Source: Butyrivibrio sp. Su6 (lineage in GTDB: Bacteria > Bacillota > Clostridia > Lachnospirales > Lachnospiraceae). Taken from it: a DNA stretch of 64,000 nucleotides. The DNA is taken from the NCBI RefSeq assembly GCF_900108105.1, contig NZ_FNUR01000002.1, positions 62,001-126,000 of the forward strand. The letters are read 5' to 3'. A model generated the notes under the pieces. That model was not told where the DNA came from. It ran no database searches and was given only the letters and a program-made list of their open reading frames with translations. The number at the start of each line of letters is the position of its first letter. The first letter of the stretch is position 1. Both the position numbers and the translations under genes were made by a program. Below, piece by piece: positions 40,207 to 64,000 of this stretch.

Positions 40207-40327
40207 CTCTTATTCAGAGTGGTGGAGGTACATAGGACCTATGAAGCCACGGCAACCCCTTGATCATTCAGGAAGGTGCCAACCTGAGCGTGCAATTCCG
40301 TTTTTTCGGACTACGAGCAATAAGAGG
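40207..40327 (+). promoter_or_regulatory. SAM-I (S-box) riboswitch aptamer of metK
   Basis: The P1 arms CTCTTATT (40207-40214) and AATAAGAG (40319-40326) enclose the S-box core: CAGAGTGGTGGAGG, GAAGCCACGGCAACC, and GGTGCCAACC followed by GAGC. It lies directly upstream of S-adenosylmethionine synthetase, so binding of SAM would shut metK off through the following terminator. Confidence 0.93.
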
Positions 40328-41744: not shown

Positions 41745-41911
41745 GTAATCTCAGCTTGTTGATAAGACCATCTCTCTGGACTTTCTTGGAAAAGTTTAGA
41801 TTGCGGCTCTGAATCCAGGAACAGTAGAGGTGGCTGCTTTCAAGAATGTGTAGGGCTATATGCTCATTTCACTGTGACAATCTGGAGATAGGAACTGATG
41901 TAGGAGTGGAT

Positions 41912-42294
41912 GTAGGATAAATGCTTAGATATTGTTCATCTTATCCTATGGACTTAACAATCCGTATAGTGTGTTTTCTCATGAGTAGGATAACTGCTTG
42001 ATTTTAGCGCTTTTTATCCCACTCTTCTTATCATTTTTGTTAACAATTCTGTTGATTTGTGGGATAAAAACGATAGTTTTTTCGCGTTTATCCTACTTTC
42101 ATTCAAGCGCAGTGTTCAGAAGGCTGAAAATGTAGGATAACTTCAATAGAATTTCAGTTTTTATCCCACGCCTCCGAAAATCGGCTTGGATTGAATAGGA
42201 TAAGTATTATAATTCTTTCGCTTTTATCCTACATCACAGCAGGATTGCTAGGACATAATAGGATAAACGTTACAGTTTTTTGATCTTATCCCAC
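41912..42294. repeat. Array of six ~38-bp palindromic units (GTAGGATAA ... TTATCC(T/C)AC)
   Basis: Units start at 41912, 41985, 42059, 42132, 42195 and 42258 and are 37-38 bp long. Each has a 9-nt left arm (G/A-T-A/G-GGATAA) and an inverted right arm (TTATCC-T/C-A-C), with about 20 variable bases between. Start-to-start distances are 73, 74, 73, 63 and 63 bp. The sequence between arms and between units is not conserved. Confidence 0.85.
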
Positions 42295-42350
42295 ATCTCA
42301 GTTAATCTCACTTTTATCCAATTTGAATCGCCAACCAATAGAAATTGCAT

Positions 42351-42586
42351 TGGGCATATAGCGCTTTTGAAAGCTTCCAGCCACCTTTGATTTTTATTAT
42401 TTTGGGCATATAGCAACTTTTTGCGAGATCAGCCACCCCTCAACTGGGCATATAGGCCGATTTCAAGACTTGGGCCACCCCTTAAAATGGTGGCTGCGGA
42501 CGGATAATCGCCGTATATGCCCAATTGCCTGCGATAAAAGCTTGGGAGAGAGGTGGCTGGAAGCTTGATATCATGCTATATGCCCA
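42351..42586. repeat. Five short units TGGGCATATAG ... GCCACC, three forward and two inverted
   Basis: Forward units begin at 42351, 42403 and 42445; inverted units occupy 42489-42523 and 42552-42586. The first and last share a longer AAGCTTCCAGCCACC and could pair. The terminal inverted repeats of the whole element contain variants of the same unit (GAGCATATAGCCC ... GCAGCC). Confidence 0.75.
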
Positions 42587-42619
42587 AAGCCGAGAAATCG
42601 GAAATTGAGCTATTGAAAA

Positions 42620-61592: not shown

Positions 61593-61637
61593 TATTGCTC
61601 TGAAATCCAGTGTTTATGCGGATTTCAGAGCAATTAT
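61593..61637 (+). terminator. Terminator downstream of lysS
   Basis: ATTGCTCTGAAATCC (61594-61608) pairs with GGATTTCAGAGCAAT (61619-61633), closing a 10-nt loop. Its sequence CCAGTGTTTATGCGG also resembles a segment just after lysS (61519 on) and one at about 63291. Confidence 0.75.
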
Positions 61638-61888
61638 TCTGACAACAATTTATTTATTTGACAACAATTTGACCACACCTGATCAATGCAGCCCAGTATC
61701 GGCGCGGCATTTGGTGTGTGGCAATCTTTTGAATTTCAGCGCGGATGCGCTATCAATGAGTTCTATTCACGGACTACTATTCCATTTTTGCTTTTTAGAG
61801 GGATTTCTTCGATGGCTCTTTTGTTACGCTTTTTTGTTACGCTCTTTACGCGTGTAAAAAGCTCTTTACGGCTCTTTTGACAGATAAT

Positions 61889-62154
61889 GTACGGATAAAA
61901 GTGCTAGTAAAGTGCAATCTTATCCGTACAAAAGGCGAGGAAAAAGGTCTTTTGGCAGATGAAGTACGGATAAAAATGCTAGTAAAGTGCTGTCTTATCC
62001 GTACAAACGGTCAGTAGACAGCTCTTATACCACATAATATACGGATAAAAAAGCTAGTAATGAGCTGTCTTATCCGTACAAGGGAAGAGCAGGGAACAAG
62101 AGATAGCTATATTGTACGGATAAGAACAAAGAATAGCATTGAACTTATCCGTAT
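61889..62154. repeat. Array of four 41-bp palindromic units at exact 75-bp spacing
   Basis: Units begin at 61889, 61964, 62039 and 62114. Each has arms GTACGGATAA and TTATCCGTAC (single variations in the last two) around 21 bases; the interiors of the first three share GCTAGTAA. Intervening 34-bp stretches are weakly similar. The arrangement parallels the array at 41.9-42.3 kb. The rest of 61638-62309 contains T-rich DNA with repeated GCTCTTT and TTTGACAACAATTT, and no gene. Confidence 0.9.
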
Positions 62155-62159
62155 TGCAT

Positions 62160-62222
62160 GGATGATAGGACCAGATGAAAGGATGATGGGACCAGATGAA
62201 AGGATGATGGGACCAGATGATA
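62160..62222 (+). repeat. Three tandem 21-bp direct repeats
   Basis: Consensus GGATGATGGGACCAGATGAA plus one A, at 62160, 62181 and 62202, with two or three substitutions in the outer copies, just after the 75-bp array. Confidence 0.8.
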
Positions 62223-62309
62223 GGACCGGATCGTAGGCCTGATGGCTGGTGCATGAAAAAGCGTGTATGAAAAAAGATAAAGATAAATAAGAACAGGAAA
62301 GGAAAATTT

Positions 62310-63143
62310 ATGACAAATTACAATGAGATAATTGGTGAATTACAAAAAAGAAAGGTGCAACTGGAAGCGAGTATAGCCATAGCAAATAAAAAGATTGAGA
62401 AATTGCCAGAGGGAAAGCTGCGGATTTCGTACTGTAGGGGGAATCCGCAGTATTACAAGATTATTGACTCTGCCGATACTCACGGGAAATACATCAAAAA
62501 AAGCGACTTCAAGATAGCACAAGAGCTGGCGCAGAAGGATTATCTGAAAAAGATTATTAATGTAGCGCAGGAAGAACTAACAATTGTAAAAAGAGCTATA
62601 GGTGCAGGCGCCAACTTTCCAAAAACAAAGGAAGATAATCAGGGAATTATTACTCCGGAGGCGGTATATGACAGTCTCAAGAAGGAAAGAAAAATACTCG
62701 TGTCTCCACTTTTGATAAGTGATGATGAGTATGCTAGAAGATGGAGCGAGGAACAATTCCGCATCAGCACTTATAAACCAGAGGAAAAAATATATACAAC
62801 CAGGCGTGATGAGATGGTGCGATCCAAGTCGGAGATGGTGATTGCGGATATGTACTTTGAGATTGGAGTTCCATACAGATATGAGTGCGAGCTGCGGCTC
62901 AAGAGCGGTGTCATCAAATACCCTGATTTTACATTACTTAACAAGAGGACGAGAGAAGTTATATATCATGAGCACCTTGGCAGGATGGATGATGAGAAAT
63001 ATCGGAAAAAGAATCTGCGCAAGATAGAGGAATATAGAAGAAACGGAATTTTTGTGGGGAAGAATCTCATCCTGACTTTTGAAGAGGATGGATGTCCGTT
63101 CAACATAAGAGAATTCGAAAAGAGCATAAGGGAGATTATATAG
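62310..63143 (+). CDS. Accessory protein with PD-(D/E)XK nuclease-like C-terminus
   Basis: A 277-residue protein. The N-terminal third is predicted coiled coil (KVQLEASIAIANKKIEKL), followed by a basic linker. In the C-terminal half, RSKSEMVIADMYFEIG, KYPDFTLLNKRTREVIYHEHLGRM and KNLRKIEEYRRNGI match the E - D - ExH pattern of PD-(D/E)XK-fold nucleases, with E-H-L in place of E-x-K. Such proteins are common on integrated elements. The ATG follows AGGAAAGGAAA. It lies between lysS and a displaced lysS 3' fragment, so it is probably part of an integrated element. Role as restriction or defence nuclease is an inference. Confidence 0.55.
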   Translation: MTNYNEIIGELQKRKVQLEASIAIANKKIEKLPEGKLRISYCRGNPQYYKIIDSADTHGKYIKKSDFKIAQELAQKDYLKKIINVAQEELTIVKRAIGAGANFPKTKEDNQGIITPEAVYDSLKKERKILVSPLLISDDEYARRWSEEQFRISTYKPEEKIYTTRRDEMVRSKSEMVIADMYFEIGVPYRYECELRLKSGVIKYPDFTLLNKRTREVIYHEHLGRMDDEKYRKKNLRKIEEYRRNGIFVGKNLILTFEEDGCPFNIREFEKSIREII

Positions 63144-63340: not shown

Positions 63341-63472
63341 TGACGTAGAAAATAATCACTTGCCATATCATGATTTTTTGTAATTATTGAACAAAAAAGT
63401 TCTTGCGCATAATTTGACAGACTACTATTCAAATGTGTAGTGTTGTACCTTTTAGAGAAAGGAAGGTACATT

Positions 63473-63700
63473 ATGAAAAATAAGTCAAAGGCAGAAATGG
63501 TAAAAGAATTGGGCAGCTTTATCAAGAACAGAAGAAAACAACAGAATCTAACACAGGAAAAAATGCTGGACATACTTTATAGCGAGTTTGATCTTTTCAT
63601 GGATAAGAACACATTATCACTCATTGAGCGGGGAAAAATAGCTACTAATTGGTACAATATTTTCGCCATATTATCGGTACTTGGATTTAAAAATGACTGA
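63473..63700 (+). CDS. Small XRE-type helix-turn-helix regulator
   Basis: A 75-residue protein with the XRE fold: FIKNRRKQQNLTQEKMLDIL, a recognition helix around DKNTLSLIERGKI, and WYNIFAILSVLGF. Nothing follows the HTH. The start ATG 63473 has GGAAGG 6-7 nt upstream; a TTGACA at 63414-63419 and an ACTAC/GTAGT inverted pair between -35 and -10 suggest autoregulation. It lies directly before the integrase gene and probably controls element maintenance or excision. Confidence 0.75.
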   Translation: MKNKSKAEMVKELGSFIKNRRKQQNLTQEKMLDILYSEFDLFMDKNTLSLIERGKIATNWYNIFAILSVLGFKND

Positions 63701-63803
63701 GAAATATAAGCTCAATAAAAGATGTAAACATAAGATTTTATGTGGTGAAATGAGAGCTGATATAGGAAACTTCACTCAATAACTATGTTGAACGGAGGCT
63801 TAT

Positions 63804-64000
63804 ATGATAAGAAGAGATTATTTGGGGAATGTTCTTTATAAAGGAGAATTGTTCAGAAACAATGATGACAGGTATGAGTTTCAATATACGGATGCTACTG
63901 GGAAAACCTGTCATCTTTATGCACGAACGCTGCCTGAATTGCGAAGAAAAAAAGAAGACACTTTAGGAATCATGCGAGTATGTTCAAGTGCTTACAGAGC
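63804..64000 (+). CDS. Tyrosine recombinase/integrase, N-terminal part (Tn916-type), cut by window edge
   Basis: The visible 65 residues begin MIRRDYLGNVLYKGE, then DRYEFQYTDATGKTCHLYARTLPELRRKKE. This follows the N-terminal arm-binding domain of Tn916-type integrases (RDxxGRxLxxGE, then RYxYxYxDxxGxxxxxYSWxLxxLRxK). The catalytic domain lies beyond the window. CGGAGG precedes the ATG at good spacing. Together with the lysS fragment 0.5 kb upstream it marks the start of an integrated element. Confidence 0.75.
   Translation, partial: MIRRDYLGNVLYKGELFRNNDDRYEFQYTDATGKTCHLYARTLPELRRKKEDTLGIMRVCSSAYR

Follow-up and report, generated by a model that had tools for sequence, protein, structure and literature searches.

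What are four palindromes, set at exactly even intervals immediately upstream of a gene without a Pfam or NCBIfam model, doing in the genome of Butyrivibrio sp. Su6? The stretch analysed, hereafter the window, comprises 64,000 nucleotides (NCBI RefSeq assembly GCF_900108105.1, contig NZ_FNUR01000002.1, positions 62,001 to 126,000 of the forward strand). An earlier note, made from the sequence alone, described an array of four 41-bp palindromic units at a 75-bp period at 61889–62154 of the window, and suggested that the core it shares with an array 20 kb away implies a common factor or mechanism recognising two arm types. The analysis indicates that the array appears to belong to the gene just downstream, a member of an undescribed family encoding predicted nucleases, about half of which have a detectable array of short palindromes beside them, each clade with its own arm sequence, with units placed a whole number of DNA-helix turns apart and scattered through the genome, which looks like a new kind of repeat-spreading or chromosome-marking system.

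The array itself is as the note described it. Sequence and repeat analysis recovered four units of the form GTACGGATAA-N21-TTATCCGTAC, with three spacings of exactly 75 bp and diverged 34-bp linkers, although the linkers between some neighbouring units are clearly related. The core pattern GGATAA-N4..30-TTATCC occurs 11 times in the window against 0.09 expected, a number reached in none of 100 shuffles, and ten of these occurrences form the two arrays named in the note, at 41915–42291 and 61893–62150. In the whole genome (3.70 Mb) the loose pattern occurs 92 times (control 5) and the TACGG arm type 28 times (control 0), the latter in several arrays, while the sister type GTRGGATAA has about 40 matches. 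The positions of the features are collected below; C denotes contigs, L the fetched loci and, in the text, G the genomes compared.

Features of the window and of related loci (positions are those of the window unless a contig or locus is given)
Feature	Position	Strand	Description
Unit 1	61889–61929		GTACGGATAA-N21-TTATCCGTAC
Unit 2	61964–62004		75 bp on
Unit 3	62039–62079		75 bp on; outermost left base A
Unit 4	62114–62154		75 bp on; end-type unit with a distinct loop (AAAGAATAGC...); the same loop class ends the arrays at C11:131.8k, C11:161.4k and C8:39.9k
Family gene	62310–63143	+	277 aa, candidate array-binding protein; N-terminal helix/beta-hairpin/helix (1–102) and C-terminal PD-(D/E)XK-type nuclease domain (about 144–277)
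Array 1	41911–42295		Six units of the sister arm type GTRGGATAA-N19/20-TTATCCYAC; spacings 73, 74, 73, 63, 63
Left flank of the array	61623–61888		Present again with a second array at C11:131163–131930, 7.5 kb downstream and outside the window (direct repeat of flank plus array)
Inverted motifs after array 1	42330–42600		TGGGCATATAG / CTATATGCCCA with GCCACC; probably a further arm type of the same kind
21-bp tandem repeat	62160–62225		Three copies (GGATGATGGGACCAGATGAAA) between the array and the family gene; related sequence follows the second array copy at C11:131.8k
HTH gene and Tn916-type tyrosine integrase	63440–64000 and L016:5440–7039		Follow the family gene; integrase PF00589 and PF02920
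SAM riboswitch	40207–40326		Upstream of metK, the gene before array 1
Orthologous 85-bp-period arrays	L018:2224–2604 and L031:3796–4092		Behind a sensor-kinase-like gene; 85-bp instead of 75-bp period; five units here, four in P18
Seven-unit array	L082:5117–5477		TACGGATRA arms at 53–54 bp in a horse-feces Lachnospiraceae MAG; tightest spacing seen for this arm

Is the array a private tandem duplication? The note had named this as the finding that would refute it, and the comparison across species did not bear it out, since homologous arrays exist elsewhere with gain and loss of units. Within the genus, two or more TACGG units occur in six genomes. The array beside a thioesterase gene has five units in this genome, four in B. 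proteoclasticus P18 and three in AE2015, and is missing next to that gene in the other species looked at, so units come and go in 75-bp steps. An exact pattern scan of 84,980 species found arrays of two or more units in further Clostridia (RGIG7777, RUG12854, Saccharofermentans), in Treponema bryantii and Treponema MAGs, and in a Fibrobacter MAG. Single N22 matches in Prevotella and relatives proved to be lone longer hairpins, not arrays. GTRGG arrays and some TACGG arrays lie in larger dispersed repeats, with flanks of 200–600 bp that are 75–90% alike between loci, in part on both strands (L022, L023, L024, L041–L043, L045, L048, L028, L034 and L038).

The spacings provide a first indication of what is recognised. 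In the arrays found by pattern they were mostly not arbitrary, at 53–54, 63–66, 73–76, 83–86 and 94 bp, with a few at 97 and 106 bp in one MAG; the 97-bp spacings, which recur in the Lachnospiraceae MAG RUG12854 (L068, L073, L096 and L097), do not fit whole turns as well as the rest (9.2 turns). When arrays found de novo beside the gene family were tested, 63 non-redundant spacings from 23 arm groups gave a Rayleigh R of 0.82 at a period of 10.6 bp with phase near zero, reached in none of 20,000 uniform simulations, and an independent set from other genera gave R 0.84–0.87 for 10.5–10.8 bp. Overall, spacings fall on multiples of one helical turn (51–54, 62–65, 73–76, 83–86 and 94–95 bp). Whole helical turns mean that the units face the same side of double-stranded DNA, for which an RNA or single-strand hairpin has no reason.

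Which gene accompanies the arrays? Most genes flanking arrays are unrelated, but one family recurs across Butyrivibrio, a Clostridiales MAG and Treponema: the 277-aa ORF right after the window array, and relatives beside arrays in P18, G121, RGIG7777 and Treponema. Gene calls in these fetched loci are ORF-based. The Treponema proteins, only about 32% identical, sit beside the same TACGGATAA arms, a point against the explanation given below, but the loci outside the family were found by searching the TACGG arm, so that their shared arm is no independent evidence. No solved relative was found by sequence, and no single partner gene recurs beyond orthologous neighbourhoods. In the genus the gene forms a multigene family, present in 69 of 79 genomes with up to ten copies; in the Lachnospiraceae 74 of 199 sampled genera have a match, most full-length. 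In a thin sample of the phylum, full-length members appeared only in four genomes of this family, other hits being almost all the C-terminal domain inside much longer proteins.

A scan for any inverted-repeat array beside 68 paralogues found arrays of at least three units within 600 bp upstream in 37 and downstream in 11, against 0 of 408 shuffled flanks and 4 of 582 genomic pieces. The arms were of many kinds, including TACGGATA, GTAGGATAA, CACAGATAA, TGACTAA, ATGACTTTTT, TTAGCCTA, TCCGAC, GCATCGG, GTATATAA and others. In other genera 15 of 28 members had an array, and several of the rest showed two units at 53, 62, 63, 73 or 74 bp. About half of the members have no array of three or more units by this detector, which needs near-identical 7-bp arms and misses diverged arrays; such arrays may be divergent or lost, or may not be obligatory. 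This genome has seven members, four with their own detected arm type. Two of these types have further copies elsewhere in the genome, although for the TACTG pattern the reversed control is as frequent, so only the arrays with regular spacing count. All five genomes with a gene at least 95% identical to that of the window carry two or more TACGG units, and of the rest one does, G069, whose array lies at a contig end. G050, however, keeps TACGG arrays although its gene hit starts at residue 59 with no array beside it.

Protein and arm appear to diversify together. Protein similarity and arm similarity are correlated (Mantel test, 0 of 1000 permutations), and in the tree the clade of the window protein holds the arms TACGGATAA, GTAGGATAA, ATAGGATAA, TAGGATAA and CACAGATAA, while other clades hold other motifs. 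The correlation lies in the N-terminal domain (residues 1–102, rho 0.30) and not in the nuclease domain (166–277, rho 0.07); the whole effect size is modest because most pairs of arms are simply unrelated. The interpretation given in the earlier note is supported only in part: a common mechanism behind both arrays is supported, but as two related specificities of one protein family. The protein beside the TACGGATAA array and the one beside a GTAGGATAA array in B. proteoclasticus P18 are 48–49% identical and fall in one clade whose arms all end in GATAA. In this genome, however, no close relative of the GTAGG-type protein other than the window protein was found (best of the others 35%), so one factor serving both arm types here is not excluded. 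The place downstream of lysS holds members with different arms in different species, so either specificity changes while the location stays or the place is filled repeatedly.

The structural model of the 277-aa protein is confident (mean pLDDT 91.8, pTM 0.67) and shows a helix, a beta-hairpin, a long helix and a linker, followed by an alpha/beta domain. The C-terminal part matches TnsA (Z 8.0 over 114 residues), Bax1 (Z 8.1), Vsr (6.8) and Can2 (7.0), gives weak matches in Foldseek (best E 3.7e-3), and by sequence matches the C-terminus of the PADLOC protein PDC-S68 (E 7.8e-28). These fold matches are moderate, and Z near 8 is within what unrelated folds can give; that other nuclease families were not listed by the structural alignment (VIA-align) is no evidence against them. 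Arg171, Lys173, Glu175, Asp206, Glu221 and His222 are invariant in 52 members, and Glu175, Asp206 and Glu221 among them provide the acidic catalytic residues of a PD-(D/E)XK nuclease core, although the usual ExK lysine is replaced by E-H and activity is only predicted. The N-terminal matches are coiled coils of many kinds and say little.

The two arms of a unit vary independently, which speaks against an RNA or single-strand hairpin. In GTRGG units the variable purine of one arm is independent of that in the other (AA 50, GA 21, AG 18, GG 13; 63 matching pairs against about 58 expected), and the outer variable base of TACGG units (outer position 3) pairs no more than expected (37 against 38). 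The arms are also constrained. In G019, eight copies of a three-unit array (spacings 94 and 54 bp, identical in all) differ at 3.2% of arm positions but at 46% of loop and 42% of linker positions.

Do the arrays move? In this genome a six-unit TACTGYA array, whose cognate gene lies on another contig, sits between two TACGG units, while P18 has the empty site. The filled site carries a direct duplication (C)AAAAACCTA, of 6–10 bp depending on where the element end is set, and the inserted block is 98.5% identical to a copy on contig 12; the same insertion is present in AE2015. This sibling array type provides the only clean insertion with an empty site, the feature expected of a MITE or non-autonomous insertion element, and flank comparison among fetched loci gave no clean empty site for TACGG arrays because their flanks carry other repeats. 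In G019 the gene itself is flanked on both sides by the array in direct orientation. Arrays prefer convergent over divergent gaps (12 to 1; background 30 to 26).

Taken together, the array is best explained, with fairly good confidence, as a row of double-stranded DNA binding sites for the protein encoded just downstream. In this view the N-terminal domain reads the 9–10 bp arm, the C-terminal part is a PD-(D/E)XK-type nuclease domain, as supported by fold and invariant residues, each palindromic unit probably takes a dimer with one subunit per arm, and bound dimers stack on one face of the DNA and form a multimer. Arrays and protein would co-diversify as matched pairs, and arrays, sometimes alone, would spread to other intergenic places as short blocks, most simply through the nuclease, and then be kept with intact arms and spacing. 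The arrays, their phasing, the link to the gene, the matched variation of arm and N-terminal domain, the constraint on the arms and one block insertion are established by the analysis, whereas binding of the arms, the dimer on each unit, the stacking of bound units, catalysis and movement of the arrays by the nuclease, and function as a whole, are inferred. A nuclease with dozens of chromosomal sites would be harmful if it simply cut them, so cleavage must be restricted or serve another step. A bolder reading, about as likely as not, is that of a previously undescribed class of prokaryotic repeat-and-enzyme system, in which a PD-(D/E)XK-type family, whose N-terminal domain reads a clade-specific 9–10 bp arm, multimerises on these arrays and copies them around the chromosome, with several mutually independent specificities coexisting in one genome and the same design found in Lachnospiraceae, Treponema and Fibrobacter. 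Searches of the open-licence literature for palindromic repeats in Butyrivibrio, REP with endonuclease and phased arrays found no description, although an earlier description elsewhere is possible.

The organisation is that of REPIN/REP repeats with RAYT (TnpA-REP) transposases (PMC8049555, PMC3116915), where one gene likewise lies beside a family of dispersed short palindromic intergenic repeats, with many arm types each matched to its own gene, chromosomal rather than phage- or plasmid-borne. However, the enzyme class and the form of DNA recognised differ. A defining feature of that family, the Y1/HUH transposase acting on single-strand hairpins, was not found, the protein having no Pfam hit above cut-off and a PD-(D/E)XK-like model; in place of a single-strand hairpin with a GTAG or CGTC foot at one end, the arms differ by family, include many without GTAG or CGTC, and vary independently within a unit; and the units are phased on the double helix, with a short target duplication at the insertion. 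It would be a second, unrelated solution to the gene-plus-dispersed-palindromes design, with a different enzyme class and a readable protein-to-DNA code, in which dozens of natural protein/arm pairs in one genus make the recognition rules and the role of helical phasing directly testable. It also explains a good deal of intergenic sequence in rumen and gut Lachnospiraceae that breaks assemblies and has no annotation. BOX elements of Streptococcus pneumoniae are also modular intergenic repeats with a distinct end module and a variable number of middle modules, but here the module spacing is helically phased and a cognate gene is present. Tn7-type transposon ends share the TnsA-like domain, multiple binding sites at an element end and a short target duplication, but here no DDE partner or conserved neighbour recurs and the array itself is the moving block.

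Of the alternatives, a domesticated, non-mobile use survives best, though it remains tentative. In this model the protein is a global DNA-binding factor, a regulator of its own gene and chromosome organiser, the arrays are its conserved stations, and past spread was incidental. It is consistent with the far greater conservation of arms and spacing than of loops at dispersed copies, with arrays directly upstream of their own gene, with orthologous arrays that persist at the same intergenic sites across species, and with genes at conserved chromosomal places. It is also consistent with full-length members being nearly absent from phage records and absent from plasmids. A phage or plasmid origin of the array or gene was rejected: the array gave one single-unit hit in viral contigs, and the protein one full-length hit in a contig labelled fecal phage and nine partial plasmid hits that match only its C-terminal part in ATPases and helicases. 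On the other hand, a pure binder does not need invariant catalytic residues, the block insertion with target duplication shows recent movement, and the avoidance of divergent promoter regions is as expected of tolerated insertions. A regulator or organiser role and a mobile role may both be true.

A defence use, in which the nuclease is held on chromosomal arrays and acts on invading DNA, or the arrays mark self, is unlikely. The C-terminal domain is related to that of PDC-S68, a candidate defence protein, and the gene neighbours mobile cargo at lysS, but the shared part is only a widespread nuclease domain and no defence partner recurs beside the gene.

An RNA-level element, either hairpins in a transcript or guide units of a TIGR-Tas or CRISPR-like system, is very unlikely, and the structured-transcript alternative raised in the note is not supported. 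Each unit does fold as a stem-loop, an array beside a nuclease gene recalls CRISPR and TIGR loci, and the N-terminal hairpin gave a match to TasH, but this match is a bare coiled coil tied with many unrelated ones. Against it are the helical quantisation of the spacing and the absence of arm–arm covariation, and a search of Rfam returned only the SAM riboswitch in the window. TIGR arrays have alternating 8–12 nt repeats with 9-nt spacers and a 36-nt guide RNA (PMC12045711); they too are regularly spaced units beside a gene whose product has a coiled-coil part and may carry a nuclease, but here the unit geometry differs, without dual 9-nt spacers, the arrays are dispersed away from the gene, and no Nop family was found among Pfam hits up to E=1. 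In contrast to CRISPR repeats, only the arms are conserved and loops vary between units, no Cas domain was found, and no cas gene was seen among recurring neighbours. A terminator or promoter role was likewise rejected, as there is no T-tract and scans gave about chance level. Plain tandem duplication without function can be dismissed, since arms and spacing are kept while the rest diverges and the same architecture recurs with 23 arm groups beside one protein family; the homologues in other species and the phasing already contradict it.

Finally, the 3' side of lysS looks like an integration hotspot: where an HTH gene and an integrase follow the family gene here, other species carry different cargo, including ParA/ParB with an excisionase-like gene, an Abi-like gene and a 1124-aa protein.
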